A stretch of 64,000 nucleotides of DNA. It comes from Flectonema sp. DT1601 (taxonomy: Eukaryota; Euglenozoa; Diplonemea; Diplonemida; Diplonemidae). The stretch is taken from positions 620,001 through 684,000 of the forward strand of contig OZ025796.1 in NCBI GenBank assembly GCA_964019425.1, in the 5' to 3' direction. The notes below the pieces were generated by a model. The model made no database searches. It saw only the letters and a program-made list of their open reading frames with translations, and had not been told where the DNA came from. Both the position numbers and the translations under genes were made by a program. Shown here piece by piece: positions 28,340-56,159 of the stretch (positions within the stretch are counted from its first letter, which is position 1; the number at the start of each line of letters is the position of its first letter).

Positions 28340-28383
28340 ATTAGTAGAGGTGGCGGTATAATCACCATGGTGAAGAGAGGCTT
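28340..28383 (+). mobile_element. LINE endonuclease remnant carrying the LINE-C target site
   Basis: About 40 bp reading RGGGIITMVKRG, matching the LINE-C endonuclease segment RGGGVITMVKK at 57301-57336. LINE-C inserted in it; its last 11 bp (AAGAGAGGCTT, 28373-28383) are the left copy of the target duplication. Confidence 0.6.
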
Positions 28384-28421
28384 CTGTACTTCTGTACTTC
28401 TGTACTTTCTGTACTTTATTG
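28384..28421 (+). other. SL exon remnant at the LINE-C 5' end, with slippage repeats
   Basis: CTGTACTTCTGTACTTCTG then TACTTTCTGTACTTTATTG: the last 16 nt match the SL 3' end, preceded by two to three extra TTCTGTAC units. It is followed by the LINE-C 5' UTR (ATTTCGCAACC...), the same junction as in the minus-strand copy near 2785. Confidence 0.75.
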
Positions 28422-28478
28422 ATTTCGCAACCTAATATTGGTAAGAATCAGTGGGTACGTTTCACAGGAAAAGCAATT

Positions 28479-29272
28479 ATGAGAGACAACCTGAGGAGGT
28501 TAGTATCGGAGGCTATGAACCTCCTGAAGATGGTGGGAGATGATGGGATCCCCGAGTATGAGAAAGAGAAAAGAGTAGCGAATCTCCTGATGGAGGTTAT
28601 CCAGTTCGTGACGGGGTCGGAAGGTGGGAACCCTGAGATGAAAAGAAGAAGACCGGACACTCCCGAAGTGGGTGGTGGGACGGATGCGACCGCGACGGCA
28701 ACCGAAGCGACGGCCCCTACCGCAGGCAGCAATCAACCGACAACAGAGGCGTCTACAGCTTCTAATCAACAGACAACATCGGCACCTAAACAATCAACCT
28801 TTTCGTTTCCGCTGCCTGTACCATCATCAACATCGACTAAACAAACCACAAAGGGGAATGCTAAAGCAAGCTACCCGGAATGGCATGTACACGGCGCGTG
28901 GGCGGGCACTGTGTCTACAATCAACTACGACGTAGCAGCGAATGCTACCAACAATCTCGCATCGGGTCTTGTTTTAGTACGCTCTAAACAGGACTGGGAA
29001 GCTCTCCGTCAGACAAAGAAGAGTGGTCGATGGGCTGCAATCAGCAAAGTACCGCTAACCAAAAGCACGGTGCCTGTCGCCATACCGGTGATCAAAAAGG
29101 GTGGTGTCTGCGAAATCAGACGAGTCTTCTACACGCATATCTGTGGTGAAGATTTTTCCAAAGCCACATCCGAAATTCAACATCCGACACCCGACCCCGT
29201 CTTGTTTGTTCAGGATTGGGGCAAATCAAGTGAAAAAGATCTAACGATCAAAACAAAGGAACTGCTAAAAAA
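28479..29272 (+). CDS. LINE-C ORF1, N-terminal part
   Basis: Starts MRDNLRRLVSEAMNLLKMV. About 70 helical residues, a basic patch (MKRRRP), a Thr/Ala/Ser/Gln-rich linker, then a globular domain (YPEWHVHGAWAGTV; KSGRWAAISK; VCEIRRVFYTHICGEDF) of unrecognised family. The frame meets the inserted SL after ELLK, so the natural product is cut here. The continuation is at 56158, in frame. Probably the RNA-binding protein of the LINE; the fold does not resemble the CCHC or L1-type ORF1 motifs that I know. Confidence 0.8.
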
Positions 29273-29309
29273 CCAACGATTCTAAAGCTACAGTTTCTGT
29301 ACTTTATTG
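29271..29309 (+). other. Complete 39-nt spliced-leader exon (retroposed)
   Basis: Starts AACCAACGATTC and ends CAGTTTCTGTACTTTATTG; identical to 42539-42577. Length, AAC start and 3' end match kinetoplastid/diplonemid SL exons. No SL intron or SL RNA gene follows, so it was copied from a trans-spliced mRNA. It marks the 5' end of the first giant unit, directly after the TAAAAAA target sequence. Confidence 0.88.
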
Positions 29310-30294: not shown

Positions 30295-33200
30295 ATGTTG
30301 CCACGCAACGACACGGAGCTTACCAGCAGAATGGTAAAGGAACATCCCAATGGGACAGCTCCGGGGAGCTACGCGGAGGCTGGGCCTGGAGCACTCACGG
30401 TGTCGTACTCGGGGAGTGGACACGACGTGTTTGGCGAAGGGACAGCTCCAGGGAGCTGTGCGGAGGCTGGGCCTGGAGCATTCACGGTGTCGTACTCGGG
30501 GAGTGGACACAACGTGTTTGGCGAAGGGACAGCTCCGGTGAGCTATGCGGAGGCTGGGCCTGGAGCACTCACGGTGTCGCACTCGAGGAGTGGACATAAT
30601 GTGTTTGGCGAAGGGACAGCTCCGGGGAGCTACGCGGAGGCTGGGCCTGGAGCACTCACGGTGTCGTACTCGGGGAGTGGACACAAGGTGTTTGGCGAAG
30701 GGACAGCTCCGGTGAGCTATGCGGAGGCTGGGCCTGGAGCACTCACGGTGTCGCACTCGAGGAGTGGACATAGTGTGTTTGGCGAAGGGACAGCTCCGGG
30801 GAGCTACGCGGAGGCTGGGCCTGGAGCACTCACGGTGTCGTACTCGGGGAGTGGACACGACGTGTTTGGCGAAGGGACAGCTCCAGGGAGCTGTGCGGAG
30901 GCTGGGCCTGGAGCATTCACGGTGTCGTACTCGGGGAGTGGACACAACGTGTTTGGCGAAGGGACAGCTCCGGTGAGCTATGCGGAGGCTGGGCCTGGAG
31001 CACTCACGGTGTCGCACTCGAGGAGTGGACATAATGTGTTTGGCGAAGGGACAGCTCCGGGGAGCTACGCGGAGGCTGGGCCTGGAGCACTCACAGTGTC
31101 GTACTCGGGGAGTGGACACGACGTGTTTGGCGAAGGGACAGCTCCAGTGAGCTACGCGGAGGCTGGGCCTGGAGCATTCACGGTGTCGTACTCGGGGAGT
31201 GGACACAAGGTGTTTGGCGAAGGGACAGCTCCGGGGAGCTGTGCGGAGGCTGGGCCTGGAGCACTCACGGTGTTGTACTCGGGGGGTAGACACAAGGTGT
31301 TTGGCGAAGGGACAGCTCCGGGGAGCTGTGCGGAGGCTGGGCCTGGAGCACTCACGGTGTTGTACTCGGGGGGTAGACACGACGTGTTTGGCGAAGGGAC
31401 AGCTCCGGTGAGCTATGCGGAGGCTGGGCCCGGAGCATTCACGGTGTTGTACTCGGGGAGTAGACACAAGGTGTTTGGCGAAGGGACAGCTCCGGGGAGC
31501 TGTGCGGAGGCTGGGCCTGGAGCACTCACGGTGTCGTACTCGGGGAGTGGACACAACGTGTTTGGCGAAGGGACAGCTCCGGGGAGCTACGCGGAGGCTG
31601 GGCCTGGAGCACTCACAGTGTCGTACTCGGGGAGTGGACACAACGTGATTGGCGAAGGGGCGGCTCCGGTGGGCTGTGCGGAGGCTGGGCCTGGAGCACT
31701 CGCGTTGGTGCCGTACTCGAGGAGTAGACACAATGTGTTTGGCGAAGGGGCAGCCCCGAGGAGGTATGCGGAGACGGGGCCTAGAGAACCCACGCTCGTG
31801 TCGTACACGAGGAGGGGGCACAGCCAGTCGAAGACAAACCGCACACTAGGGGCAGGGAGTGAGACGGCATCAACGCGGGGGCCTGGGATGAACACGACAA
31901 TGGCACACGAACAGGAGTATACAAAGAGGTGGCGGGCCATGTTGGAATTAGAGATACTCAGGGATATGCCGGGTCTAGGGACACATATGGCAACAGGAAT
32001 ATTACCGTCTTTAGCATGTCAAAAACTGGAGCCCACGATATGGTTATTCCCTCAGCCAAAGCTAGTGGGTTGTGCGGGAACGAATGAGACCGAGAGGTAT
32101 CAGGAAGAAATCACGCAACAGGTGAGGGGGCCAAACCGGGCGAGCGACAGGTGGAGACTGAGTCCACCAGCGCGATGGCACAAGAAACAAGAGAAGAAGC
32201 GGGAAAAGGCCCGGAAAACGAAAAGTGGGGGACGAACAAAGGAAGAGAGAGCGCCGGAAGATGAACAGTCGACGTCAAAGCCGAGAAGCAGTTGCAAGCA
32301 GCAGCCCCACGAGATGAGAGGTGGGGGTGCGAGCTGCCCAGTGTGTGAGTGGTCTGGGACGGAGAATGGCCTGCTGGCACACATAGATGGGAAGCATAAA
32401 GGTCAATTGGGACAGGACCAGTGGGCTGACTGCGGCATGAAGGCGTGCGGACACTGCGGACGAGCAATGAAGGGGACGGCCAGTATGCACCCAAGGTGTA
32501 GGAAGTTGAGCAGCTCCAGAGAGGTGGAGGGGGAAGCAACGCCAAGCACGTCCATAGAACTACAGAGGGAGTTCCCGAGAGTCAGTGTAACCAAGACTAA
32601 GGGGGATGGGGACTGTATGTTCCGAGCAATCCTACTGGCGAAGGGAGAATGGAATCGGCGAGTGGGTGCGAGGGTGCTGCGGAAGAGACTCGCGGAATAC
32701 ATGAGAGGTGAAGAGAGGACGGACCAATGGTTCGTCAACGGACTGGCCAAGGAGGACTACGCTGTACGACTGGAGAACAAGGGATGGGGGGACAACGTAG
32801 CGCTGCAGGTTGCGGCGGACCAGATGGGAGTAGTGATCATAGTGTGGGAGGCGGGGAGACTCCTAAAGATGCTGCCCCTGAGAAGGACTGAGGACATCCC
32901 GCTGTGGATAGTGCTGGATAAAGAACACTACGAGGCAGTGCTCCAAGCGGACGCCGAAATGCTCAATCGGGTGGAGGAGAGAGCCGAGGCGGTGTATGTG
33001 CTGAAGCTCTCCGAACAAACGGCTGAAGAGGCTGCGGTGAGGATAGGCCTGGGGACGGGACCAAGCGCGGGACTGAGGGGGTCTGGGCCTTACTACTGCC
33101 CCAGGGGAGAATGCTCGCGATCACGCGCCCAGCGATTTGAGGGATATAAGAACTGGGGAGGACTATTAGGCCACTTGAACAAGGAGCACCTCCTGTCAGA

Positions 33201-36200
33201 TCGCCCTCTCACGGAGGCGGAGCAGCAGGCGATGGGGGTGCGACCATGCACGATGTGTGGGTGTCTGACGGGAAGCAGCACCGGGGTCCACCCGAGATGT
33301 AGAGAAGCCATGGCGCTAGATGGGGGGGAGGAAGAGGTTCAGAACGCCCCGTGGCCAGACGAAAAAGAGCTTGGAGAGCTGCCGTCGTGGGAGGAGATAG
33401 GGGCGGCACAGGTAGTGGTGCCAAAAAAGTTGGACGAGAGGCTGACGATGTTGTGGGCGAGAGCTCTCATGGCAACATTGCAACGGATAGCACAGCGGAA
33501 TGACCCGCGGGCATGGAAGCTGCTATTGATGCTCCCGAAAGCATGCCTGGGAACGCCGGCGGTGCGGAAGGATGAGAAGGGGACAGAGACGCATAGGGAG
33601 AGGCTGACGAGCAGGCTGGAAGGATGGCTGAGGGGAGAGTATGTAGCGATGTGGAGCACGAGGGCAAAGAGGAACAAAAGACGACGGGAGAAGGAAACGA
33701 CACAGGGAGAACGGTATGAGCGGTGCTGCGCCCTGAGCAGGAGAGGGAGGTACGCGCAGGCTAATAAATGCCTGGTGTCGAGCGGGCTAGCGCCGAACGC
33801 GCCGGAAGTCCTGGCGGCGATGCAGACCATCCACCCGAGTCCCATGCACGAGAAGATAGACCTGGAGGGGGTGAGAACGGGGAACACAGTAGTGTCGCCG
33901 GAGGAAGCACTAGCATCGCTGAAGACATTCCCGAAGGACACGGGGGCCGGACCGTCGGGATTAAGCGTGGAGCTCCTGAAGCAAGCGTGCGACACGGGAC
34001 TGCGAGGGTTGATGCCAACGCTCTGCACTACATTAGAGCTACTGGTAAGAGGGAAAGTACCTTATGAGGCGGCACCGGTGTTGGCAGGAGCTCGCCTGAT
34101 CGCGCTGAAGAAAGAGCCGACCGGGTATAGACCAATAGCAGTAGGGGAATCACTGCGGAGGTGGGCGTGGAAGATAGTGCTAGCAAAAATAAGGCCCAAG
34201 ATACCAAACCTCTTAAAGCCAGGAGGACAGCTGGGGGTGGCGGTACCCAGTGGGGTGGAGGCGGTGTACGCAATAGTACGGGACTACGCGAGGAGGAACA
34301 GGGGGGCCAACAAGGCAATCCTGACCATTGATTTTGAGAACGCTTTTAACTGTGTCTCGAGGGCGGTGTTCCTGCGTGAGCTGGCGTCCACGCTGCCGGA
34401 ACTGTTGCCTTTGGCATCGTGGTGTTACGAGAGACCGACGAGCCTCTTTTTTGAGGATACCACGATTCCGTCGAGGGAGGGGGCCCAACAGGGGGATCCG
34501 GCGGGGCCTCTCCTTTTCTCACTCGGGATAAAAAGCCTACTGGAGGGACTCAAGAAGATGGGACTGGATGGAAGCCTCTGGTTCTTAGACGATGGAGTGT
34601 TGATGGGAGGCGTAGACGAACTAGCGAAGGCGTACGACTACCTGGTTCAAAAGGCATCAAGCCTGGGGCTAAAGGTAAAGGAGGCGAAGTGCGTATTCGT
34701 ACCTCTGCGGGTGGGCCTGGAACCGAAGGGGGGCTTGGAGAAGGTGAAACAAGAGTCCGAGGGAAACTTCACCATTCTCAAGCTACCGGTAGGGAGTGGG
34801 AGCTACTGCAAGGAATACCTGCTGCAGTACGTGACGAAGCTGAAGAAAGTAAGCGAGTCACTGACGATGCTACCGGATCGGCACGTAGCGCTGACCCAGC
34901 TACGATACTGCCATTCGTATGGGAAGATGGTATACTTGATGAGGTCAATGTACCTGGAGGACCAGCGATCAGGTCTGGCAGATTTCGATGCGGTGGTGAG
35001 AAGCGTGTTGCGGGGTCTCGTGGGTGGGGATATGGATGAGCGGGCGCACTTACAGGCGGAGCTACCTTTGCGGGAAGGGGGGGTGGGCCTGCGAAACTGT
35101 GGGAGACACGCGGCGGCGGGCAGAGCAGCGTCGGCCACTGCGACGAGGAAACTGTGCGTGGAGCTGGACGCCCAATACCAAGTCGACCCTGAGGAGTGGA
35201 GTGGGGTGTGTAAAGCGCTGACGCTGGAGACCTCGGAGGAGTGCGACCTGGACCTCGATAAGGTAGTGCGACAGAGAGAGCTGTCAATGAAGATCGACGC
35301 CTCGCTGAAAACGAAGATGGTCAACGACCTGAAGGGGAGCGGAGACCGAGAAAGACTTGCACACTTCAGAGCGGTGTCCATGCCGAGGGCGAGTGCGTGG
35401 TTGGCGGAGGCAAGCGACACGGGAACCGTGATGCCGTCGCAAATTTTCCGGACCGCGATCAGGGCGCACTTAGGGCTGGAGGTCTTACAGGCGGGACAGC
35501 TATGCAAGAGGTGCAACGCTAAGCTAGACCCTCGGGGGGTGCACGCAGGGATGTGTAACCGGGGGGCAACGCCAACCATACGCCATAACCTAGTCAGGGA
35601 TTTCCTGGCGAAGCAGGCAAGGGTGACGGGGATGTCCGTGGAAATGGAGCCGCAACGAATCCTAGATGGAGGGAGGAAACCGGCCGACATCCTGGTAAGC
35701 GAGGCAGTGCCGGGAACGACACGAAACTGGACAGGAAGACCGGCGGCGTACGACGTGACGGTCATCGAGGTATGCTCGCAGACAAGTCTGTCCCGGGGAT
35801 CGCACTTGGATGCGAGGCGGGTCATCCAGGCGAAGGAGAGGGAAAAGGTGAAGAAATACGGGGAGGAGTGTAGCTCGAAGGGAATAGCTTTCGTTCCTCT
35901 AGTCTTCACGCGCGACGGGGCCATGAATGAGGCAGCTGCGGCCTTCATCAAGGCGATTTCTCTGAGGACACGGAGACCGGCAGAGGCGTGGAGGGCACTG
36001 TCGAAAGAGATATCAACAACGCTAGCGTATAGCTGGGCGAGAGCGGTCGAAGATAGGGGGGAGTTGCTGATGGGGGGCGACGGAGCACCTATCAGTACGG
36101 ATCTACCCCCGATATTCAAGGAGGATGAGTGGGAAGACGAGATACAAGACCTGGTCGACAAGATGGGGAGCATCGGGGAGGGGCCAGACGAATCGGGGCG

Positions 36201-39200
36201 GTTACTGTCGGAGGCCGACCGGAGTGTGGGAAGGACTACCAGACCGGACGCTGCGCCGGAGATTGGCCAAGCCGCAAGAGATAGCACACAGAAGGCAGGC
36301 AACCAGAGGGAGGTGCAAGCCCCGGAAAGCGGGACGAGGTCCACCCTGCAGGAGCCGAAGGAACTGGAGCAGACTCACGGAGGGGCAGGGGAGCCGGGGG
36401 AGGCACGAACGGAGGAACCGTCAACTGAGGAATCTGGAGTCGGAGGGAGGACGCCGGCGGAGGGACCAACTCCGGACCGAGGGAACGCAATCACGGAGCC
36501 TTCACGAGCTGAGGGACCGGGACCCACGACGAAAGAGACAGGACGGTTGCCGGGCGCCCCGGTGGTGAAGCTGGTAGTTTCGGAAGGCAAGCCAGGAAGT
36601 GTTCCAAGGTTCAAAGGACATGGCAGAGATGTGATGGCCCAGCTAGAGCGAGATATGGCGGACCTAGACATCACGAAGCGGCCGTTATTGTCCTACGAGG
36701 CGTCGGGAAAACAAGATGACAAGTGGGCCACATCGGATGTGAGGGGATTTGAGAACACGAGAGGGACGTGCTACGCCGCAGCAACAGTCTGCAGCCTAAT
36801 ATGGGCCACACCACTAATAGGGTTGATGAGAGAGAAAGAAACGGCGGATAAAACGTGCGTAGGGGGATGTCTCGCCTGTGTACTGTGGAAGATGTCTAAA
36901 GAAGACCACCCAAGACTGGACGGGTTAATGGAGGAGACACGAGTCACGATCCAGGACTTCACGGCGGACACGGTCAGGAAGGAGATAACAAGGTATTCTT
37001 TGGCAGGAGGTTCGCCATTGGCTTTCCTTAAACAGATCCTAAATAACCTGGCACTGAAGGAGTGCGCGGTGTGGGGGGGGACTCTGAGGAGCCTGTTCGA
37101 ATCCAGATTGAAAGCGACACACAGGTGTGTATGTGGGTTTGTGAGGCAGGAGGTGCAGCTGAGTTTCATGGTCTTGGACCCAAAGACCAAGCCGGAGACA
37201 GCAAAGATCATCCTCTTAGGAGGGCCGCTCGAAGAAGAGACGAAGAGTCCAACGATCTGCGAGAGGTGTAGATCGCCAAACAGAGACTGCACTGTGCAGT
37301 GGAGATTCGCCGAGATGCCGCCGATCCTGTTCGCGAAGGAGAGAGTGGAACAGACGACGAGGGCCGCCTTTCAGGTAGAGACTGAAAGCGGGCCACGCAG
37401 TTATGTTTTAACGGGGAGTGTATGTGGCAATGGGAGACATGCAATGACAATGGTAAGAACGCCGAGGAACCGATGGGCATGTGTGAGCGACGAACGGGTG
37501 CAGAGCAAAGAAGGACCAGGCACGGGGCCGCTTTATTGGGTGTATACGAGAATCGAAGGAACGGAGGGTCTGTTAAGTGAGAAGCTCCTCTCCATAGACC
37601 ACCGCATGCGGACAAGCCGAGCACTGAAGCCACGCCCAATGGACGATAAATCGGGACGAGCGAGGCGGTGGTACTTTGACCAAAAAACACAAGTAGCGAA
37701 GGAGGCGGTGGTAGAAAGGAGGGAAGAGCCAGTTCTGCATGTGGAAAAGCCGAGGGCAGAGCAACCACCATCCCCGTCGGAGCCGAAACCTTTGGAGCCA
37801 GCATCAAACGGAGACATTGCGAAACTGACGCAAGAGACGAAGGAAGAGCCACCAGTACAAACTAACCGCTCCAAAGGGGACGGTGGGCAGCAGGCGCTGC
37901 CGCCGCCCCAGCTGCTCAAGTCTGAGGCGCGGAGTCCAGAGCGGGCAGAAGGCTCAACAACGGAACCAATGCGAATGGACGGGAGCGACCAGACTAAAGA
38001 CGTCACCGAACCGTCGGCGGGGATAGGATTGCACGCAGGAGGGAATTACTCGGACACATCCCTGTCGCTATCGGAACCGCCGCCTGTGAAACCCCACGGA
38101 AATGTCGAGACTTTGGAGCCAGCATCAAACGGAGACATTGCGAAGCTGACGCAGGAGACGAAGGAAGCGCCACCAGTACAAACTAACCGCTCCGAAGGGG
38201 ACGGTGGGCAACAGGCGCCGCCGCCGCCCCAGCTGCTCAAGTCTGAGGCGCGGAGTCCAGAGCGGGCAGAAGGCTCAACAACGGAACCAATGCGAATGGA
38301 CGGGAGCGACCAGACGAAAGACGTCACCGAACCGTCGGCGGGGATAGGATCGCACGCAGGAGGGAATCACTCGGACACATCCCTGTCGCTATCGGAACCG
38401 CCGCCTGTGAAACCCCACGAAAATGTCGAGCGGATGCCACAGGGACTGAGTGCGGTGCCATTGACGCTGTCAAAGCAACCGGAGGACCAGGATAGACGAC
38501 AGACACCGCCGGCTCCCCAGCAGTCCGTATTAAAACTACAAGAAACAGGACAGGATTTGCTACAGGTCCCGGTGAAAGTAGCCGAGCGGTCGAAAGAACC
38601 GGAGGCGCCGCCTGCGGTAAAAGAAGAGTCGAACCTGCCGGCGAGGAACCTTTCACCACCGGTGTCTATTTCAACACCAAGCCAGGACGTGCGGACGCCT
38701 ACGCAGCCGTTGCGTGATCCCGAGCAGGGAGAACCGCATGCACTTGTGAAACCGACAGAGGGCGCACAGACGCAAGCGAATGGATTGGTTTCAGAAGGAG
38801 CAGCCCCACAGAAGAGCAGAAGGGAGCCGACAGAACCTAAGACGTCTAGGGAGCAAGGTCTAAAACTGGGCTTTTACGCAACAGGACCGACCACGTGGGA
38901 GACAGCACCGTGGGAAGGAGAGCAAGACCCAGAGGAGGCCCAACAAAAGAGGGAGCCACTGGTACCACAGGAAGCAAACGCTCGGGAGGAAGACCGCGAG
39001 GGATATGACGAACCGACAGCGCGTGGAACAGACGGAGGAGCTGATGTACAGATGGAGAACTATGAGAGCCAGGAAGGGGCGAACTCCCAGGAACTAATGG
39101 AGGAAGTTACAGGGGAGATTGCCGAAACGAGCGAGCCGCTAGCGTATGGAATGGATGAAGGGGGTGATATACTCATGGAGGACTGTGAACCGGAATCAAA

Positions 39201-42126
39201 CCTTTTCTGCACGCGGGTAGCGCCAGCGGCCCCGTGTCTTGGTAGCAGAGGCCCGGACGTCACCGAACCGCAGAGCCAAGGGGGTGGGACGAATATCCAG
39301 ACGCGGACCACCTGGATGGAGGGCCTGACGAACCTCGGAGACTCGTGTTACCTGAACGCCACCTTGCAGGCACTACTGAAGGGGTCGCATGTGGATTTCC
39401 AGCGGGCACGGAACACCCCTCACGTATGCGGGACGAGGTGCACAGTGTGCGCACTAGCACTGGTGCAGGGAGGTGGGTCGCAAGGAGAGATAACGAGGAT
39501 CACAAGAGAATGGATGGGAAGAGGACAACAGGACGCCCACGGAGCCCTACTACACATAGTGTCGGACCTGCAGGAAAGAGCAAGACCAGGCGACCTCTTA
39601 GCAAACGCTTTCACATGCATGGTGGCAGTAGAACGCACGTGCATATGCTGTGGCGGAGGGAGCCAATCAATCGAGCTGGACTGCGGCCTGATACTGCGGG
39701 GATGGGACCTACAGTCGGCACTGGAGTCGACGACGATACCACAGGACTACGTGTGCGGACTGTGCGGTACGGGGTCTTTGCAGGAGCGCAGGATCTTGAT
39801 GGAGGCGCCGGAAACGATGATCGTATGCATTGTGAACGAGAATGCCACGAAAATGGCGCTGGGAGAACAAGTGTCGATGCGGAACAGCAAGATACAGGCC
39901 GACTATAGGGTGTCCGCTGTGGTGGTCCATCAGGGGTGTCTGGGATCGGGTCACTACACGTCTTTCACCCTATCACCGGGCGGCTGGAGGTACCAGGACG
40001 ATGAGGTGGAGCGAGCAACAAGCTGGCGAGAGGTGCTGTCGTCTGTCCCTTACGTGCTATTCCTGCGAAGACAAGCTACAAAGGAGATGTTCTGCGCAAA
40101 TGAAGTTCCGATGATGCCACGACTAGCTCCACAGGTGGTCAGGGTAACGCCCCCAGAGCAGCACGGAATGGAAGGAAGGGATTATAGGCAAGTGAACAGT
40201 GAAATGCTCATACGGCCTGGAACGCAAAAGTCACGGACACAGTGTGAAGTACCACAATCAACACGGACCCAAAACCCACCGAACCTGCTAAGGACGGTGA
40301 AGACACTAGGTCGGTGCGAGAAGAAGAACGCCACGCGTGTCACAATACGAGCACACACAACGAAAGGCCAGAGGAGTCAACCGGCGACGCGAATGGAGAG
40401 CAAGTTCAAGCTCTATGCTATCTCGAAGGGAAGGGGACGCACTACCATCGTGAATAGCTGGGCAGAGGCCGAGAAACAGACGAAGGGACTCTCTTGCGCT
40501 GTTTATCAGGGCTTCAATAATGGAGAGGAGGCGGAGGCTTTCCTGAGAAGCACTGACCCAGAGTATAAGACAGCAGACAAGCCAGTAAAAGGCCCACGCA
40601 GAAATCGGCGGTACGCGGTCCCGTGTGGACGGCGTCCAGGAACGTACAGCACATGGAGTGAAGCCTCACTGCAAGTGCTACGCTGTCCAGGTGGGAAGGT
40701 GAAGAAGCTTTGCACGGACAGGAGAGCACGGGAGTACGTCGAAGAGCACAGAGCCACGAAAGGGTTAACGCAGCCAACACCACCACATCCAGCTGTGTAC
40801 CTTTTCTTAGGCAAAACCGGAAGGGCGTGCCTGGTGCGGAGTGGCGGAGGACCAGTGATGAAGAAGTGGCATGAGACCACAGGAGAGGAAAAAGACCCCA
40901 TGCTGGCCGCACTAGAATTGGCACTGGAATGGGTCACAGGGAAGGGCCTCCTGGAGGGACCCGTGGAAGTGCAAGCATACGCACCCTTGGAACAGTGGAC
41001 GAGAGAACGGTGGGAGAAATTCGGGGCGATAAGTAGCGTGGTAAGGGCACGAGGACTAGTGTTGAGGCTGGCGGACCTACCTGTCGAAGTAAAGCACACA
41101 GCTTACCAGTGGGTGTGCCAAGTGATGACAGGCGAAACAGAGGTAGAACAGAAACCGAAGCCAGCGGAACCAGTCGAGGAGCCGAAGGAAGGATCGGCAG
41201 ATCCCCACCATGGACGTGAGCCCCGAATAGGATGGCGCCCAAGTGCGATCCATGAGCCTGAGGAGGGAGTGCGAGGACAGTCGGAACCGGAAGCGGCTTT
41301 TAGAGATTCGAAGAAGAGGGCGAAGATCGAGCTCATAGAATGGCACTCTGAAAAGCCCATCTATGAACTGTTCTACGCAGCAACACAGAGGGAGACGAGA
41401 ACGTGTGTTGTAAGTGGCGGTGAAGTGATCCACATGTGGAGATTCCCCCTCAAGGAATGCTCGCCGAACCGCGAGGGTAAGGCGTTAGGGATCGGGATGG
41501 CGCAGCTGCTAAGTTACGGAGACGCAGTGAAGGAAATAGTGGCGTACGGCTCACTCGAGCACTCAGTAGAGTCACACCGACGATACATCGAGGTCTCGCA
41601 GAGAATGGCGCATCGACTTGGATCAACGCTGAGGCTGGAGCGCCTGCCCCCCGAAGCCAGCGAAGAGGCCTACCGATGGGTGAGAGGTGAGGAAAAAGTC
41701 GGGAGGAGATTGTTAAAGTGGAAGGAGGAGAACGGTAAGGAAGTCTCACAGGCGGTAACAAGCACACACGAGAAAAATATTGTGCCTGAAACCACCACGG
41801 AGCCTACCATGGACCATGACTCAGACAAGATGACGTCAGACTCGAGCTCGATCTGCTCCCCACCGACACAAGAAGACCGCCCCCCAGTAGGGATGTGTGG
41901 GTGCGGAAAGGAGATACCGCAAGCAGCGATCAAGAATCCGGTGAAACACCCGACGAAGGGATGGTGTGATAGGTGTGGAGAGCGGATCGCGAAGGGAACG
42001 CGGGTAGTCATGTGCGTGAAGTGTGACTACGCTGAATGCTGCGGATTGTTGGAGAGATCGCGGCGTGGGAAAGAGAAGAGGAAAAGGAAATCACGGGGAT
42101 CGCGATCGAAAAACGATGCCATGTGA
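30295..42126 (+). CDS. Giant-1 polyprotein: OTU / RT / RLE / two USP domains / hybrid-binding motifs
   Basis: About 3,943 aa from ATG 30295; the frame is open further upstream but that part is the kinase gene in another frame. Order by position: 17 repeats of 29 aa (30352-31830); C2H2-like and CxxC fingers (32335-32510); OTU protease (32560-32950; GDGDCMFRAI, WGDNVALQ, HYEAV); more fingers (33090-33300); RT (33930-34700; RPIAVGE, TIDFENAFN, GAQQGDPAGPLLFS, catalytic FLDDG); CCHC (CKRC...HAGMC, 35504-35558) and restriction-like endonuclease (RKPADILV, AYDVTVIEV, 35670-35775); divergent USP (36740-37560; GTCYAA, GNGRHAM); a 321-bp duplicated linker; canonical USP (39315-40075; NLGDSCYLNATLQALL, GSGHYTSF); two RNase H1 hybrid-binding-like motifs (40400-40745); two RNase H-like regions; terminal CxxC finger (41893-42050). 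No APE. Confidence 0.85.
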   Translation: MLPRNDTELTSRMVKEHPNGTAPGSYAEAGPGALTVSYSGSGHDVFGEGTAPGSCAEAGPGAFTVSYSGSGHNVFGEGTAPVSYAEAGPGALTVSHSRSGHNVFGEGTAPGSYAEAGPGALTVSYSGSGHKVFGEGTAPVSYAEAGPGALTVSHSRSGHSVFGEGTAPGSYAEAGPGALTVSYSGSGHDVFGEGTAPGSCAEAGPGAFTVSYSGSGHNVFGEGTAPVSYAEAGPGALTVSHSRSGHNVFGEGTAPGSYAEAGPGALTVSYSGSGHDVFGEGTAPVSYAEAGPGAFTVSYSGSGHKVFGEGTAPGSCAEAGPGALTVLYSGGRHKVFGEGTAPGSCAEAGPGALTVLYSGGRHDVFGEGTAPVSYAEAGPGAFTVLYSGSRHKVFGEGTAPGSCAEAGPGALTVSYSGSGHNVFGEGTAPGSYAEAGPGALTVSYSGSGHNVIGEGAAPVGCAEAGPGALALVPYSRSRHNVFGEGAAPRRYAETGPREPTLVSYTRRGHSQSKTNRTLGAGSETASTRGPGMNTTMAHEQEYTKRWRAMLELEILRDMPGLGTHMATGILPSLACQKLEPTIWLFPQPKLVGCAGTNETERYQEEITQQVRGPNRASDRWRLSPPARWHKKQEKKREKARKTKSGGRTKEERAPEDEQSTSKPRSSCKQQPHEMRGGGASCPVCEWSGTENGLLAHIDGKHKGQLGQDQWADCGMKACGHCGRAMKGTASMHPRCRKLSSSREVEGEATPSTSIELQREFPRVSVTKTKGDGDCMFRAILLAKGEWNRRVGARVLRKRLAEYMRGEERTDQWFVNGLAKEDYAVRLENKGWGDNVALQVAADQMGVVIIVWEAGRLLKMLPLRRTEDIPLWIVLDKEHYEAVLQADAEMLNRVEERAEAVYVLKLSEQTAEEAAVRIGLGTGPSAGLRGSGPYYCPRGECSRSRAQRFEGYKNWGGLLGHLNKEHLLSDRPLTEAEQQAMGVRPCTMCGCLTGSSTGVHPRCREAMALDGGEEEVQNAPWPDEKELGELPSWEEIGAAQVVVPKKLDERLTMLWARALMATLQRIAQRNDPRAWKLLLMLPKACLGTPAVRKDEKGTETHRERLTSRLEGWLRGEYVAMWSTRAKRNKRRREKETTQGERYERCCALSRRGRYAQANKCLVSSGLAPNAPEVLAAMQTIHPSPMHEKIDLEGVRTGNTVVSPEEALASLKTFPKDTGAGPSGLSVELLKQACDTGLRGLMPTLCTTLELLVRGKVPYEAAPVLAGARLIALKKEPTGYRPIAVGESLRRWAWKIVLAKIRPKIPNLLKPGGQLGVAVPSGVEAVYAIVRDYARRNRGANKAILTIDFENAFNCVSRAVFLRELASTLPELLPLASWCYERPTSLFFEDTTIPSREGAQQGDPAGPLLFSLGIKSLLEGLKKMGLDGSLWFLDDGVLMGGVDELAKAYDYLVQKASSLGLKVKEAKCVFVPLRVGLEPKGGLEKVKQESEGNFTILKLPVGSGSYCKEYLLQYVTKLKKVSESLTMLPDRHVALTQLRYCHSYGKMVYLMRSMYLEDQRSGLADFDAVVRSVLRGLVGGDMDERAHLQAELPLREGGVGLRNCGRHAAAGRAASATATRKLCVELDAQYQVDPEEWSGVCKALTLETSEECDLDLDKVVRQRELSMKIDASLKTKMVNDLKGSGDRERLAHFRAVSMPRASAWLAEASDTGTVMPSQIFRTAIRAHLGLEVLQAGQLCKRCNAKLDPRGVHAGMCNRGATPTIRHNLVRDFLAKQARVTGMSVEMEPQRILDGGRKPADILVSEAVPGTTRNWTGRPAAYDVTVIEVCSQTSLSRGSHLDARRVIQAKEREKVKKYGEECSSKGIAFVPLVFTRDGAMNEAAAAFIKAISLRTRRPAEAWRALSKEISTTLAYSWARAVEDRGELLMGGDGAPISTDLPPIFKEDEWEDEIQDLVDKMGSIGEGPDESGRLLSEADRSVGRTTRPDAAPEIGQAARDSTQKAGNQREVQAPESGTRSTLQEPKELEQTHGGAGEPGEARTEEPSTEESGVGGRTPAEGPTPDRGNAITEPSRAEGPGPTTKETGRLPGAPVVKLVVSEGKPGSVPRFKGHGRDVMAQLERDMADLDITKRPLLSYEASGKQDDKWATSDVRGFENTRGTCYAAATVCSLIWATPLIGLMREKETADKTCVGGCLACVLWKMSKEDHPRLDGLMEETRVTIQDFTADTVRKEITRYSLAGGSPLAFLKQILNNLALKECAVWGGTLRSLFESRLKATHRCVCGFVRQEVQLSFMVLDPKTKPETAKIILLGGPLEEETKSPTICERCRSPNRDCTVQWRFAEMPPILFAKERVEQTTRAAFQVETESGPRSYVLTGSVCGNGRHAMTMVRTPRNRWACVSDERVQSKEGPGTGPLYWVYTRIEGTEGLLSEKLLSIDHRMRTSRALKPRPMDDKSGRARRWYFDQKTQVAKEAVVERREEPVLHVEKPRAEQPPSPSEPKPLEPASNGDIAKLTQETKEEPPVQTNRSKGDGGQQALPPPQLLKSEARSPERAEGSTTEPMRMDGSDQTKDVTEPSAGIGLHAGGNYSDTSLSLSEPPPVKPHGNVETLEPASNGDIAKLTQETKEAPPVQTNRSEGDGGQQAPPPPQLLKSEARSPERAEGSTTEPMRMDGSDQTKDVTEPSAGIGSHAGGNHSDTSLSLSEPPPVKPHENVERMPQGLSAVPLTLSKQPEDQDRRQTPPAPQQSVLKLQETGQDLLQVPVKVAERSKEPEAPPAVKEESNLPARNLSPPVSISTPSQDVRTPTQPLRDPEQGEPHALVKPTEGAQTQANGLVSEGAAPQKSRREPTEPKTSREQGLKLGFYATGPTTWETAPWEGEQDPEEAQQKREPLVPQEANAREEDREGYDEPTARGTDGGADVQMENYESQEGANSQELMEEVTGEIAETSEPLAYGMDEGGDILMEDCEPESNLFCTRVAPAAPCLGSRGPDVTEPQSQGGGTNIQTRTTWMEGLTNLGDSCYLNATLQALLKGSHVDFQRARNTPHVCGTRCTVCALALVQGGGSQGEITRITREWMGRGQQDAHGALLHIVSDLQERARPGDLLANAFTCMVAVERTCICCGGGSQSIELDCGLILRGWDLQSALESTTIPQDYVCGLCGTGSLQERRILMEAPETMIVCIVNENATKMALGEQVSMRNSKIQADYRVSAVVVHQGCLGSGHYTSFTLSPGGWRYQDDEVERATSWREVLSSVPYVLFLRRQATKEMFCANEVPMMPRLAPQVVRVTPPEQHGMEGRDYRQVNSEMLIRPGTQKSRTQCEVPQSTRTQNPPNLLRTVKTLGRCEKKNATRVTIRAHTTKGQRSQPATRMESKFKLYAISKGRGRTTIVNSWAEAEKQTKGLSCAVYQGFNNGEEAEAFLRSTDPEYKTADKPVKGPRRNRRYAVPCGRRPGTYSTWSEASLQVLRCPGGKVKKLCTDRRAREYVEEHRATKGLTQPTPPHPAVYLFLGKTGRACLVRSGGGPVMKKWHETTGEEKDPMLAALELALEWVTGKGLLEGPVEVQAYAPLEQWTRERWEKFGAISSVVRARGLVLRLADLPVEVKHTAYQWVCQVMTGETEVEQKPKPAEPVEEPKEGSADPHHGREPRIGWRPSAIHEPEEGVRGQSEPEAAFRDSKKRAKIELIEWHSEKPIYELFYAATQRETRTCVVSGGEVIHMWRFPLKECSPNREGKALGIGMAQLLSYGDAVKEIVAYGSLEHSVESHRRYIEVSQRMAHRLGSTLRLERLPPEASEEAYRWVRGEEKVGRRLLKWKEENGKEVSQAVTSTHEKNIVPETTTEPTMDHDSDKMTSDSSSICSPPTQEDRPPVGMCGCGKEIPQAAIKNPVKHPTKGWCDRCGERIAKGTRVVMCVKCDYAECCGLLERSRRGKEKRKRKSRGSRSKNDAM
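30352..31830 (+). repeat. 87-bp in-frame minisatellite (17 units)
   Basis: Sixteen 29-aa units of the type GTAPGSYAEAGPGALTVSYS / GSGHDVFGE plus a degenerate last unit. Variants alternate (PGSY/PVSY/PGSC; HD/HN/HK VFGE) and blocks of several units recur in the same order, a sign of unequal exchange or replication slippage. All frames on both strands stay open because the unit is a multiple of three. Confidence 0.92.
37791..38432 (+). repeat. 321-bp tandem duplication in the giant-1 linker
   Basis: Two adjacent copies (from LEPASNGDIAKLTQETKE to SEPPPVKPH), nearly identical and in frame. They form a Pro/Glu/Thr-rich linker between the two USP domains. Confidence 0.85.
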
Positions 42127-42538
42127 GAAGCATGAAACGGAAAGTGAATGAACGGAAAAAATTAAATGTAAAGAAGTGAACTTGTAAAAAATGTAAAGAA
42201 GCAAACATGTTAAAAGAAAAATGAAAAAAAAAAAAAAAAAAGAAGAGTGAAAAGGAAGACAGAGTTGTATGTAAACTGTATGTAAATGTAAGAAGAAAGA
42301 AAAAACACGCTGGAAGTGGGAGTGCAACCATCAGCGCAAACACAACCACAAATATTGTTTTTTTTTTTTTCCTTTTTCTTTTCTTCGCTTCGGCGACAGA
42401 TATGGTAGGACCTAGAAAACCGGCCCAAAACTTGTGTTGCAGTTTATCTTTTTAGCGCACACTCATGTAACATAAGGATCGCTGGTTCCGAGGGTTTGCT
42501 CTCCTGCCATACTTGCCTCTCACCTCCCTCAAAAAAAA
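42127..42538 (+). other. Giant-1 3' UTR and poly(A)
   Basis: A purine-rich, then pyrimidine-rich 3' UTR ending CCTCACCTCCCTC plus poly(A). Nearly identical to 27120-27522. A hairpin around CTCATGTAACATAAG carries one change relative to the other copy. Confidence 0.8.
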
Positions 42539-42577
42539 AACCAACGATTCTAAAGCTACAGTTTCTGTACTTTATTG
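42539..42577 (+). other. Complete 39-nt spliced-leader exon (retroposed), 5' end of giant-2
   Basis: Identical to 29271-29309. It joins TTTTTCCCCTCC exactly where the following monomers have TTCTTCACAG|TTTTTCCCC, so the genomic acceptor AG for this SL is visible in the next monomers. Confidence 0.9.
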
Positions 42578-45535
42578 TTTTTCCCCTCCCTCGCCCCATC
42601 CCCGTCAGCGAGTAGGAAAGCGCAGCTAGGAATTTTTCCACGCAAGCGGATCCCACAACCCGACCACCCTTCCCCACGCTCACCCCATCCACCCTCCCCC
42701 ACCCCAACAAAAGAAGAAAACGGCGGCAGCCACGTGACACACTCGTGTTCGTGTAGCGAAGCGTTTCGGCGACTTCGAAGACGACGACGACGACGACGTA
42801 GAAGTGACGGTGTATGTGACTGACCTTCTTCTTCCTTATTTATTTGTTTACTTTTGTTAATTACTTCCTCTTAATTTCATTCCTCTCTTAGATTGTTGTT
42901 TATTTGCTTATTTATTTGTTTGTTTATCTGTCTGTTTATCTGTCTGTATATTCTGTTACTATCTGTTATTTTGTTACATTTATCTGTCTACTTTAGAGTA
43001 CATTTTTGTTATTGTTAAATTAAAACATCTTCTTCACAGTTTTTCCCCTCCCTCGCCCCATCCCCGTCAGCGAGTAGGAAAGCGCAGCTAGGAATTTTTC
43101 CACGCAAGCGGATCCCACAACCCGACCACCCTTCCCCACGCTCACCCCATCCACCCTCCCCCACCCCAACAAAAGAAGAAAACGGCGGCAGCCACGTGAC
43201 ACACTCGTGTTCGTGTAGCGAAGCGTTTCGGCGACTTCGAAGACGACGACGACGACGACGTAGAAGTGACGGTGTATGTGACTGACCTTCTTCTTCCTTA
43301 TTTATTTGTTTACTTTTGTTAATTACTTCCTCTTAATTTCATTCCTCTCTTAGATTGTTGTTTATTTGCTTATTTATTTGTTTGTTTATCTGTCTGTTTA
43401 TCTGTCTGTATATTCTGTTACTATCTGTTATTTTGTTACATTTATCTGTCTACTTTAGAGTACATTTTTGTTATTGTTAAATTAAAACATCTTCTTCACA
43501 GTTTTTCCCCTCCCTCGCCCCATCCCCGTCAGCGAGTAGGAAAGCGCAGCTAGGAATTTTTCCACGCAAGCGGATCCCACAACCCGACCACCCTTCCCCA
43601 CGCTCACCCCATCCACCCTCCCCCACCCCAACAAAAGAAGAAAACGGCGGCAGCCACGTGACACACTCGTGTTCGTGTAGCGAAGCGTTTCGGCGACTTC
43701 GAAGACGACGACGACGACGACGTAGAAGTGACGGTGTATGTGACTGACCTTCTTCTTCCTTATTTATTTGTTTACTTTTGTTAATTACTTCCTCTTAATT
43801 TCATTCCTCTCTTAGATTGTTGTTTATTTGCTTATTTATTTGTTTGTTTATCTGTCTGTTTATCTGTCTGTATATTCTGTTACTATCTGTTATTTTGTTA
43901 CATTTATCTGTCTACTTTAGAGTACATTTTTGTTATTGTTAAATTAAAACATCTTCTTCACAGTTTTTCCCCTCCCTCGCCCCATCCCCGTCAGCGAGTA
44001 GGAAAGCGCAGCTAGGAATTTTTCCACGCAAGCGGATCCCACAACCCGACCACCCTTCCCCACGCTCACCCCATCCACCCTCCCCCACCCCAACAAAAGA
44101 AGAAAACGGCGGCAGCCACGTGACACACTCGTGTTCGTGTAGCGAAGCGTTTCGGCGACTTCGAAGACGACGACGACGACGACGTAGAAGTGACGGTGTA
44201 TGTGACTGACCTTCTTCTTCCTTATTTATTTGTTTACTTTTGTTAATTACTTCCTCTTAATTTCATTCCTCTCTTAGATTGTTGTTTATTTGCTTATTTA
44301 TTTGTTTGTTTATCTGTCTGTTTATCTGTCTGTATATTCTGTTACTATCTGTTATTTTGTTACATTTATCTGTCTACTTTAGAGTACATTTTTGTTATTG
44401 TTAAATTAAAACATCTTCTTCACAGTTTTTCCCCTCCCTCGCCCCATCCCCGTCAGCGAGTAGGAAAGCGCAGCTAGGAATTTTTCCACGCAAGCGGATC
44501 CCACAACCCGACCACCCTTCCCCACGCTCACCCCATCCACCCTCCCCCACCCCAACAAAAGAAGAAAACGGCGGCAGCCACGTGACACACTCGTGTTCGT
44601 GTAGCGAAGCGTTTCGGCGACTTCGAAGACGACGACGACGACGACGTAGAAGTGACGGTGTATGTGACTGACCTTCTTCTTCCTTATTTATTTGTTTACT
44701 TTTGTTAATTACTTCCTCTTAATTTCATTCCTCTCTTAGATTGTTGTTTATTTGCTTATTTATTTGTTTGTTTATCTGTCTGTTTATCTGTCTGTATATT
44801 CTGTTACTATCTGTTATTTTGTTACATTTATCTGTCTACTTTAGAGTACATTTTTGTTATTGTTAAATTAAAACATCTTCTTCACAGTTTTTCCCCTCCC
44901 TCGCCCCATCCCCGTCAGCGAGTAGGAAAGCGCAGCTAGGAATTTTTCCACGCAAGCGGATCCCACAACCCGACCACCCTTCCCCACGCTCACCCCATCC
45001 ACCCTCCCCCACCCCAACAAAAGAAGAAAACGGCGGCAGCCACGTGACACACTCGTGTTCGTGTAGCGAAGCGTTTCGGCGACTTCGAAGACGACGACGA
45101 CGACGACGTAGAAGTGACGGTGTATGTGACTGACCTTCTTCTTCCTTATTTATTTGTTTACTTTTGTTAATTACTTCCTCTTAATTTCATTCCTCTCTTA
45201 GATTGTTGTTTATTTGCTTATTTATTTGTTTGTTTATCTGTCTGTTTATCTGTCTGTATATTCTGTTACTATCTGTTATTTTGTTACATTTATCTGTCTA
45301 CTTTAGAGTACATTTTTGTTATTGTTAAATTAAAACATCTTCTTCACAGTTTTTCCCCTCCCTCGCCCCATCCCCGTCAGCGAGTAGGAAAGCGCAGCTA
45401 GGAATTTTTCCACGCAAGCGGATCCCACAACCCGACCACCCTTCCCCACGCTCACCCCATCCACCCTCCCCCACCCCAACAAAAGAAGAAAACGGCGGCA
45501 GCCACGTGACACACTCGTGTTCGTGTAGCGAAGCG
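42578..45535 (+). repeat. 462-bp tandem monomers (6 full + 1 partial)
   Basis: Units start at 42578, 43040, 43502, 43964, 44426, 44888 and 45350 (partial) and are essentially identical. Each has a C-rich half (CCACGTGACACAC, GACGACGACGACGACG) and a T-rich half ending in a pyrimidine-AG acceptor (ACATCTTCTTCACAG). Unit 1 begins with the SL instead. The organisation recalls 5' promoter monomers of mammalian L1; here each unit also carries a trans-splice acceptor. Confidence 0.92.
43025..43039 (+). promoter_or_regulatory. Trans-splice acceptor in the monomer (first of six)
   Basis: ACATCTTCTTCACAG directly before TTTTTCCCC. The same site recurs every 462 bp (AG at 43038-43039, 43500-43501, and so on). 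Use of the equivalent site is documented by the SL junction at 42577/42578. Confidence 0.8.
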
Positions 45536-46847: not shown

Positions 46848-49800
46848 ATGGAGAAAACAATGTTACTGTGTGGGTACGTGCTGCTGTGGGCACTACTAAG
46901 TGGAACGAGGGCGCAACAGACGTCCGGAGTGGGTAAGCAGAGGTTAGCCCCAGTGCCAGGCGGATGGCACACCCCTCTTTTCACAACGCTGGACAAAGGC
47001 CCACTGTTTTCATCGCGCATCAGCCGACGCGTAACACGCCCGATCCCCCCGCACCCATTTATAACCCCCAACAGCTCAAACAGCCCCAACAATACGGCAA
47101 GCGGACGCGCTTTCCAACATGGACGAGAGGGGGTGTGGGTCCCGCGGAGGGGAACGGAAACGGCCGGGAACCGGGTGAGGCGAGACCACCCAAAGCCACC
47201 TCCAGACAAGGGAGGAAGGGAGCTCCTGAAGAGGGCGTCCCCGAAAGTGGCGTCCAAGGCGGCAAGGCGGCTGGAAAGGAGGAGGAGGAAGCTGCTGAAG
47301 GAACGGCAGGAGAGGTGGGAGCGGTGGGCGGGAGAGTTGGAGAAGTTCCACGCCAGGCGAGAGAGGTTCCGCGCGGAGACAGAGAGGCCAAGGAAGAACA
47401 AGGCGGAGACACCGAAGAAGCGACGGGCAGGGCCCGAAAGGGACTGGACAAAGCCAGGAGGGCACAAGGCGGAGCCCAGACCATGGTATGCGAGGCCGTC
47501 AGACCTGGCAGGAGGAGGGCAAAGCAAGGAGAGGACGAAGTGCCCGGTGGTGGGGTGCAGCGTCTGGGTGAGGGGTGACCTAGAGTACCACTTCAAACAA
47601 CACCTGAAGGGAGTGGTACCGGGGGAGGTAACGGCCCAGATGGCATCCGACAGACTCGGAAAGCAGATCTGCAAGGCCTGCGGGGAGCTGAGTACCGGAT
47701 TGGTGCACCAGACAGTGAGGTGTCGGGAGATGTTGGACCTCAAGGGACGGCTGGGGGTAGCGACGGGACCCACGCCGGAACTGGCAAGCCTGAAGTGCGA
47801 GGGAGCAAAAGTATTCCGGGTGATTGGGGATGGGAATTGCCTGTTCAGGAGTGTGTGCCAACTCCTAGAGACGCCAGAGGGGTGGAAGGGCAGACATGGA
47901 GAGCTCCGCAGGAGAACGGCAGGATACCTGACCAAGAACAGGGAAAGGTTCGAGGTCTTCTTCCAGGACGCGGACGCATTCGGAGTATATGCGAGGGCGT
48001 TGGAAGAGGATGGATGCTGGGGCGATGCATTGGCCCTACAGGTCATGGCAGAGGACCTACAGTGCCGCTTCGTCGTCGTGGTGAGGACGGAAACGCTGGT
48101 GGTGGAAGGGCCATCGGACCCGAAGCGGACGCTGGTCTTGACCCTGCAAAACGGGTGCCACTACGACCCAGTGGAGGCATCCGAGGACTGCGTCGCGCGG
48201 CTGCTACAGAGCGCCCGGAGGTTGGAGTTAGTGTCGCCAGGCCCGCTGTCGCAAGCAGCAGGAGGCGAGCCGGCAGTGCTGCAGACAGCCTCCCGACAGG
48301 CCCAGCTGCACGAGTGCCCCCAAGCGGAGTGCCCGAAACACAAGGGAGGCTTCGAGGAGTGGGCGGAGCTCCTAAGACACGTGGACGAGCACGCATTCAG
48401 TGGCAACCCGCTGACGCATGGACAGTTGGCGAGGCTAGGCCTCCGGGAATGTCCGGTGTGCTGTGGGATCATCGGGCAGGACCAGCCGATGCATCCGGGG
48501 TGCAGTGAGAAACTGCAGAAGGTCCAACTGGGGGACGTGTACACGGCGTTCCGGAAGCGGGTGCTGGAGAGCCAGAGCTTCCCCTCTTTGGAGGAAATAG
48601 CCAGCAGGAGGAGGCCGATAGCGAAGAAGCTGCCGGTGTCCCTGTTGCATCATCTGGGGCGAGCACTCAAGCTGTCGCTCGACCTAGTCGTGGAGCGGAA
48701 CGATGAGTGGGCATGGAAGCTGCTCTTGATGCTCCCGACATGTACACTGCGGAGGATACGGAGGGGGGGTAGGAGGTTGTCGACCAGCGATCTGACAGGG
48801 GCGGTCGACGACCTGCAAGCATGGATTCGGGGGGAATTTGAGGGACTGTGGAAAGCGGCGGCCCCCCGCAAGGCGACGGGAAGGCCAGCAGTGAAAGAGG
48901 CGGGGCAAAAAGGAAGGAACGACAGGGCCACGTCGCTAGCGAGGGAGGGTTGCCTGTCACAGGCGATCTCGGCCCTAGACGCGCCGCCGCCAGCAGAACG
49001 AACCGAGAAGGTGCTGGAGCAGATGCGCACCCTACACCCGAGGGCGAGCGGACCCCCATCGGCCACGGCAGGGCAGGAGGTGCAGATAGCAGAGGTGGAG
49101 CTGCTAGCATGCCTACGCTCCTTCCACAGGGGGTCGAGTGGAGGGCCTTCGGGCCTCGCGCCGCAACACCTGAAGGACGTGGTGGAGCGGGGTGAGGTGC
49201 CGGGGCTGGTAGCCTCGATCACGGAGGTGGTGAGGATTCTGGCGAACGGGAGGGCGCCGCGGGAAGTAGCGCCGCTGCTGGCGGGGGCGAACCTGACGGC
49301 GCTGGAGAAAGAAGGGAAGCCGGGGGAGCACCGGCCAGTCGCGGTGGGGGAAACATGGAGGCGGCTGGTGGCGAAGATCCTGTGCGGGGCATATAGGTCC
49401 CAGGCGAGGAGCTCGTTGCTAGAAGTGAGACAGCTGGGAGTAGCGGTGTCGGGGGGAGTGGAGGCGGCGGTGCACACCCTGCATGAGTTCCGCGCGGAGC
49501 ACGCGCTCTCGTCACAGAAAGTGTTCGTGAAGATAGACTTCTCGAACGCCTTCAACTGCGTGAAGAGGGGGGCGTTCCTGGATTCGACGAGGGATACCCT
49601 GCTGGAGAGCTGGGTCAGCTGGTGTTACGGAGCGCCGACGTGGTTGCTGTTTGGGGACGAGAGGCTGAGCTCGGAGGAGGGCGCTCAGCAGGGGGATCCG
49701 TTGGGTCCCTTGCTGTTCTCGCTGGCAATCAAGCCGGCGCTGCAGAAGGTGTTGGAGGCGAAGCCGGAGTTGGCGTGCTTCTACCTGGACGATGGGCTGG

Positions 49801-56157: not shown

Positions 56158-56159
<2 letters not shown>

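Follow-up and report, generated by a model that had tools for sequence, protein, structure and literature searches.

The locus and its two giant elements

The window (the whole stretch of 64,000 nucleotides analysed here, C17:620001-684000 of an 89.5-Mb assembly of Flectonema sp. DT1601) is a nest of retrotransposons, as judged from LINE copies repeated side by side. It holds two giant elements, element 1 (family A) and element 2 (family C), and a host kinase retrocopy, and this chain, from 29271 to 56157, occupies an A-run of an older LINE.

28381..29270 (+): older APE-type LINE, 5' part with leader remnant and ORF1, collinear with another LINE copy
29271..29309 (+): 39-nt spliced leader, 5' end of the kinase/element 1 chimera; the 5' flank ends CTGCTAAAA
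29310..30351 (+): host protein kinase mRNA, processed retrocopy (ORF 29343-30263, 3' UTR 30264-30351); Pkinase 4.8e-79
30352..42538 (+): element 1, 5'-truncated, with poly(A); five other genomic copies are 99.2-99.8% identical over 10.5-12.2 kb, with a common 3' boundary near 42540
56158..61424 (+): interrupted APE-type LINE, 3' part (ORF2 57171-60926, poly(A) 61403-61424); APE type read by eye at the ORF2 start

The element 1 frame is open from 30106 to 42126 (4006 aa) and encodes, in this order, fingers, OTU, reverse transcriptase (RT), CCHC plus restriction-like endonuclease (RLE), two USP-type domains and two hybrid-binding domains. The first-pass annotation had placed the polyprotein at 30295..42126. 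Its open frame stands, and its start has to be moved: positions 30295-30351 are kinase 3' UTR and the element begins at 30352. Beyond the stop codon the element ends in a poly(A) at 42531-42538, followed by the spliced leader of element 2. The parts of element 1 are the following.

30352..31822 (+): 87-bp (29-aa) in-frame repeat, 16.8 copies
32335..32544 (+): finger pair 1, C2H2 plus CxxC/HxxxC, from the cross-family alignment
32599..32856 (+): OTU-type cysteine protease domain; Pfam OTU E 9.2e-8, Asp, Cys and His retained
33091..33300 (+): finger pair 2 (approximate), translation read by eye, start from the element 1/element 2 alignment
34108..34701 (+): RT core with FLDDG; Pfam RVT_1 6.4e-13
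35503..36174 (+): CCHC and PD-(D/E)xK-type RLE; invariant Cys/His/Asp/Lys columns, weak R2 endonuclease alignment
36727..37569 (+): USP1, divergent USP-type domain; profile comparison, alignment and predicted structure
37790..38430 (+): 321-bp tandem duplication within a linker
39322..40062 (+): USP2, canonical USP domain; Pfam UCH 5.6e-15
40408..40746 (+): two hybrid-binding domains, RNase H1 N-terminal type; Cauli_VI in two stretches (3.8e-18), RNase H1 chains
41959..42090 (+): C-terminal CxxC finger and basic tail, by eye; B, D and E have a similar tail

Chance and assembly error are ruled out as the source of element 1, since its RT part has seven full-length matches at 100% on seven contigs (window copy included) and there is a second element of like plan. 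GC content is 52-65% in 2-kb bins across the giant ORFs vs. about 39-48% in the remaining bins.

Element 1 is an RLE-type non-LTR retrotransposon: it has a LINE-type RT and, C-terminal to it, a CCHC and PD-(D/E)xK-type RLE in which the CCHC, K/R-P-x-D and DVTV motifs are present. The RT-RLE profile matched R2 chains (E 2e-25), to which the RT part contributed 2.1e-21 and the RLE part a weak match (domain i-Evalue 1.1). With Pfam at E up to 1, neither giant ORF of the window matched an APE (Exo_endo_phos), and so the two endonucleases of Dualen/RandI were not found together. Ulp1 gave no match in either ORF at the same threshold, which is a weak test against Utopia/NeSL because the Utopia protease is itself variable. 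Pfam, profiles and motifs agree with the first-pass annotation on such a retrotransposon with an OTU, two USP-type domains and hybrid-binding motifs. Element 2, the corrected 5' boundary, the spliced leaders and the genomic families go beyond that annotation.

Element 2 is divergent from element 1 and repeats its domain plan with one USP. Its frame is open from 46737 to 55370, with an ATG at 46848, and the ORF starts 4.7 kb beyond the element 1 frame. The two proteins are 30.6% identical from OTU to RLE (1321 columns, E 7e-131) and 26% in the USP (E 7e-16), and the hybrid-binding region aligns too.

42539..42577 (+): spliced leader, element 2 5' end, in the poly(A) tail of element 1
42578..45535 (+): 462-bp tandem monomers, 6.4 copies, acceptor CTTCTTCACAG at the joints
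46848..55370 (+): element 2 ORF, 2840 aa, one USP
47826..48086 (+): OTU, 1.9e-12
49308..49904 (+): RT, 7.4e-17
50697..51287 (+): CCHC and RLE, invariant columns and motifs
51408..52145 (+): USP, 2.7e-11
53001..53336 (+): hybrid-binding domains, 2.5e-27, two stretches
56100..56157 (+): poly(A)

Identity of the protease domains

The OTU and USP2 of element 1 are above the Pfam cut-off; USP1 gave only UCH_1 (E 0.05), below it. USP1 is a relative of USPs, with a USP profile and fold in both A and B, the only families where it was found. The profile of its two sequences matched the five canonical USPs of these elements (probability 95.6%, E 1.2e-8), and in the alignment it retains the Cys, His and Asp together with the paired Cys knuckles. 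It has RHAM or KHAV where other USPs have GHY, and USP1 of element 1 is 25% identical to the USP of element 2 (E 8e-4). A model of USP1 from a six-row alignment (pLDDT 65.9) matches USPs or the SAGA deubiquitinase module throughout the best 50 matches of each list. This model is not independent of the alignment, as four of the six rows are canonical USPs; the one from its own two sequences alone reached a pLDDT of 34.5.

The canonical USPs belong to peptidase C19, with the UCH profile, Cys/His/Asp or Asn, and Cys knuckles. A profile of five USP2-type domains matched USP36, USP8 and USP15 chains (best E 1.3e-24). None of the eight aligned USP domains has lost the catalytic Cys or His, and their third residue is Asp or Asn; the canonical USPs keep the Cys and His in every family despite identities down to 22%. 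In A, B, C and E the canonical USP is above the Pfam cut-off; that of D is split over two loci and was seen whole by alignment and in a relative of D (P0127). Four families (A, C, D and E) have an OTU above the cut-off in which the Asp, Cys and His are retained; that of B falls just under it (22.5 vs. 23.3 bits) and has Asn for the usual Asp.

Five families with a common domain order

Searching the assembly with the RT part gave 58 matches, a lower bound, which represent families A, B, C, D and E plus pieces. RT identity to A is 58-62% in B, 36-37% in C and 33% in D and E. Half of the matches (29 of 58) lie within open frames of at least 2600 aa, two of which (family A) contain N runs; the giant frames measure about 2840 to 5423 aa, and long linkers separate their domains. 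With USP2 as query there were 80 matches, 15 at 100%, and the weakest may be host USPs. The family A 3' end is common to six copies and one fragment, and several copies are 5'-truncated.

Compared on one full copy per family, the OTU, RT, RLE, canonical USP and hybrid-binding domains are present in all five families and in the same order, with the B OTU below cut-off. Pfam listed OTU (sub-threshold in B), RT, UCH and two hybrid-binding stretches in one copy each of B, D and E, with low scores for the B RT and the D USP because locus boundaries cut them. The RLE motifs (C..C, H, C, H; P-x-D; DxTV/I) are found in 5/5 families.

Purifying selection seems to act on the protease parts, if weakly on the USP, as dN/dS between D and E is lower there (OTU 0.13, USP 0.33) than in the linker (0.51). 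The other values were 0.02 for RT, 0.05 for RLE, 0.21 for the hybrid-binding region and 0.24 for the C-terminus; thus, the USP evolves faster than RT, RLE and OTU. These ratios come from the single pair D/E, the A copies differing too little: USP1 shows 7 nonsynonymous vs. 4 synonymous differences in five comparisons of A copies.

The 5' coding parts of D and E (L031 and L033) are nearly identical (dS 0.03 vs. about 0.45-0.8 elsewhere), and we read this as a recent exchange of 5' modules between the two families.

Spliced leaders and insertion sites

The 39-nt spliced leader, AACCAACGATTCTAAAGCTACAGTTTCTGTACTTTATTG, matches exactly the leader exon of SL RNA genes arranged in tandem, whose units also contain an apparent 5S rRNA gene (5S by eye). 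Two positions separate it from the Euglenozoa 14 entry of PMC3795323. Taken with the D. papillatum relatives described below, this fits a probable diplonemid host. The assembly has 714 leaders with at most two mismatches; in 623 the next bases are GTACAG, like those of the gene, and about 91 lie elsewhere.

Full-length copies start with the spliced leader fused to the trans-splice acceptor of their 5' monomers. In three families the leader joins the base directly after an AG acceptor of the tandem monomers (family A, CTCCTTCCTCTCAG; family C, CTTCTTCACAG; family D, CCCATCCCATTCAG). A pattern search combining leader and monomer, with up to 3 mismatches, retrieved 18 junctions for C and 3 for A; our counts are confined to these, since junctions of other families had been picked for AAAA before the leader.

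Insertion sites are mostly A-runs, and a large share lies in kindred tails. An A-run of 6 to 10 A (the leader's own AA included) precedes the leader in 14 of the 18 C junctions, one of them being the end of a longer, interrupted run. In 12 of these 14 the A-run lies right behind the 3' end of a further giant element, from family A in four cases, B in five and C in three; tails end in CCCTC-A in A and B and in CCCG-A in C. The four C junctions with no A-run are on C1, at C54:542 and, twice, on C24 with a damaged leader. Among the A junctions, C24 has 7 A with a shortened leader, C18 has AAATAAA, and C66 has none adjacent and AAAAATA nearby. Family A 3' ends lie in varied sequence. Targeting of SL genes in the manner of SLACS was rejected: the sites read consist of A-runs, LINE sequence and the tails of further elements.

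The distance from leader to RT was taken in 11 C copies with both within 6 kb. It is 2926-2954 in seven, so that most C copies keep few monomers, and 3211, 3701, 5259 and 5270 in the others. Trans-splicing may consume the 5' monomers round by round.

The nest and the kinase chimera

When the two flanks of the interrupted LINE are joined (28381..29270 and 56158 onward), they are 75% identical over 1379 bp to a minus-strand copy near 1.5-2.8 kb, which represents the empty site. Against its gene (C18:598871-600140), the kinase retrocopy has lost four introns and aligns in five blocks of 97-100%, and the identity ends at 30352. The retrocopy is leader-capped and intronless, has an intact ORF and is fused to element 1 at that position. 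The joint looks like a template switch while element 1 was copied.

The whole chain of kinase, element 1 and element 2 could also stem from one template-jumping event rather than from successive insertions into A-runs. The kinase cDNA is fused within element 1 with scant homology at 30352, and LINE chimeras of several parts are reported for Magnaporthe (PMC2104539). Against this, leaders at A-runs outside giant-element tails, on C54, C67 and C45 and at one C52 site, likewise have a short A stretch before them; these were chosen from AAAA-preceded leaders. Such stretches are expected under A-run targeting, with which only the kinase/element 1 joint would need a jump. We regard a single event as rather unlikely and keep to successive A-run insertions.

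Other retrotransposon sequence surrounds the chain. Further LINE copies lie side by side at 9669-19700 and 20080-26516 (pairs 76% and 97% identical). Just 5' of the nest, a 5'-truncated family A fragment (27018-27521) with its own poly(A) is 96% identical to 42022-42540. At 61991-64000 on the minus strand there is an open frame that by eye is RT-like with an RNase H-like end.

Comparison with known elements

Searching with element 2 returned five long proteins: a near copy, two Diplonema papillatum models (a SLACS 132 kDa protein and a hypothetical one) and two unnamed proteins. The RT-RLE profile had 212 matches, of which the best 120 were listed. In a set of 124 related proteins, many of them fragments and with near copies of element 2 left out, our OTU profile matched two (P0004 and P0112) and our USP profile two (P0003 and P0006, both from D. 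papillatum; P0003 had helped build that profile). OTU and USP are thus not needed for RLE elements in general. The query with USP plus hybrid-binding region, covering proteins of about 0.55 to 1.75 times its length that share exact words, had two matches, the near copy of element 2 and the family D relative P0127.

In a FastTree phylogeny of RTs (130 rows, R2 as outgroup), A-E group with P0003, P0004 and P0041 at support 100, and A-E alone at 88; the program warned of long branches and of odd composition, P0003 among the latter, and P0006 is not in the tree.

Like A-E, P0003 and P0006 combine RT and USP in one long protein, and P0003 falls in the same supported RT clade; unlike A-E, the P0003 model begins without the region that precedes the RT and lacks a hybrid-binding match, and its USP is single. 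By eye, the C-terminal parts of P0003 and P0041 show an extra OTU-like stretch, with catalytic residues apparently lost and no Pfam match there. The search matches included no SLACS or CRE1 sequence, and the NCBI name of P0003 is the sole pointer to SLACS.

R2 resembles A-E in having an RT followed by a CCHC-RLE, with matched chains of 1114-1390 aa; it is specific to 28S rDNA and, to our knowledge, has no protease. The Chlorella LINE Zepp forms nests by inserting into the tails of related copies, and it is not known to carry a deubiquitinase. The D. papillatum genome paper counts SLACS-like models and, in its available part, describes no protease (PMC10161547). The CRE clade of trypanosomatids (SLACS, CZAR, CRE1/2) is similar to A-E in its RLE, zinc fingers, poly(A) and euglenozoan hosts. 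CRE elements insert at a fixed place in SL RNA genes (PMC12278014, whose main text contains neither "protease" nor "ubiquitin"), while the elements described here have the leader on RNA of their own, and most of their sites are A-runs.

Utopia-1_TSP and nematode NeSL are RLE LINEs that, like A-E, have a cysteine protease of a type acting on ubiquitin-like modifiers, in their case a single, N-terminal one of Ulp1 type; the available part of the Utopia paper describes the Utopia protease as variable and mentions neither OTU nor ubiquitin (PMC4640811). As far as the accessible text goes, Ginger1 carries OTU or Ulp1 but not both in one protein, some Helitrons carry OTU, and Trichomonas has a transposase fused to peptidase C19 (PMC2836005). 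These are DNA transposons, unlike A-E, and share with them an OTU, Ulp1 or C19 domain joined to a transposition protein.

In one open-access library, to which the search was confined, we found no earlier description of a USP in a LINE, alone or together with an OTU, as the first-pass annotation had presumed for OTU and USPs together. This suggests that the combination in a single non-LTR retrotransposon polyprotein is not previously described, as far as found.

Role of the deubiquitinase domains

Removal of ubiquitin is the likeliest role of the OTU and USPs, judging from their sequences. Such a role is plausible because catalytic residues are kept and the domains look to be under purifying selection, and it is favoured because Pfam listed no ubiquitin-like domain to cut in cis. 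The first-pass annotation had also offered processing of the polyprotein, in which the proteases would cut it into functional pieces as viral proteases do. The giant frames and the long linkers separating their domains would suit this, but USPs and OTUs are isopeptidases for ubiquitin-like modifiers. Moreover, Pfam listed no ubiquitin or ubiquitin-like domain in any family A-E protein scanned, and LRGG is absent from those of A, C, D and E, with a single VLRGG inside the B USP1. Self-cleavage is therefore improbable, and we give this part of the annotation little credence.

A somewhat less remote alternative, still unlikely in our judgement, is that the domains are largely inactive ubiquitin-binding or structural modules whose catalytic residues are kept by fold constraint. 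The distance of USP1 from canonical USPs (RHAM/KHAV vs. GHY), the Asn in the B OTU and the relaxed dN/dS of the USP relative to the RT speak for it, while the Cys and His kept in the canonical USPs of all families, divergent as these are, and the Cys, His and Asp kept in both USP1s speak for catalysis. That an element merely landed beside host deubiquitinase genes with the frame open by accident is hardly credible. Chimeras do arise here, as the kinase retrocopy and element 1 demonstrate, but the domain order is common to five families with RT identities to A as low as 33%, and D. papillatum likewise has RT and USP in one protein; the copies and families led us to reject it.

We thus favour ubiquitin removal, and the model as a whole, in which giant RLE-type non-LTR retrotransposons took deubiquitinase domains into their polyprotein and use them to strip ubiquitin during transposition, seems to us somewhat probable. 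In a single polyprotein, they would have acquired an OTU ahead of the RT and, past the endonuclease, one or two USPs. Transcription of the element would be followed by trans-splicing inside one of the 5' monomers; the RLE would nick an A-run, in many cases that of a kindred element's tail, and the RT would copy the capped, polyadenylated RNA up to the leader by target-primed reverse transcription, with the hybrid-binding domains holding the RNA:DNA hybrid. The OTU and USPs may deubiquitinate the protein-RNA complex of the element itself, host chromatin and repair factors where it inserts, or both, which could shield the complex from the proteasome or ease completion.

The USP-bearing relative in D. 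papillatum, within the same supported clade, counts for the model; the sub-threshold B OTU with its Asn, the faster evolution of the USP and the four C junctions outside A-runs count against it. More tentatively, and with somewhat less than even confidence, we propose that ubiquitin removal is a built-in, selected step of transposition for which one polyprotein supplies as many as three cysteine deubiquitinase domains, in a lineage of elements that spread as leader-capped, trans-spliced mRNAs, use up their monomers, insert largely into the A-tails of kindred elements to form head-to-tail nests, and trap host mRNAs.

The recurrence of deubiquitinase-like domains in DNA transposons, and of Ulp1 in some LINEs, is a hint that ubiquitin signalling restrains or assists transposition. 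In the present case one retrotransposon protein combines OTU and USP in each of five families, some of them recently active, and jumping genes of this kind may manipulate the host protein-tagging (ubiquitin) system. D. papillatum is transformable, and the relative present there means that this question is open to experiment. A further lesson of the elements is how a LINE can coexist with trans-splicing: leaders mark complete 5' ends, and full-length reverse transcription and target choice can therefore be read from the genome.

Finally, some minor observations concern single copies and ORF starts. A family C copy on C53 (L045/L046, C53:648000 and C53:661550) is flanked by a family A tail at the 5' end and, at the 3' end, by a piece of family A 3' UTR that starts at the internal A-run of this UTR. 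Two leader-bearing copies (L041 and L042, C45:610250 and C45:641350) lie beside inverted family E matches and look like an inverted duplication, because their 5' flank is identical. In the one copy read per family, the ORF start is hydrophobic and signal-peptide-like (46848-46920 in C; L013, L021, L031, L033), most weakly in A, and in A, C, D and E it closely follows an A-run, which is odd for a retrotransposon; those of D and E are not independent, given their recent 5' swap.
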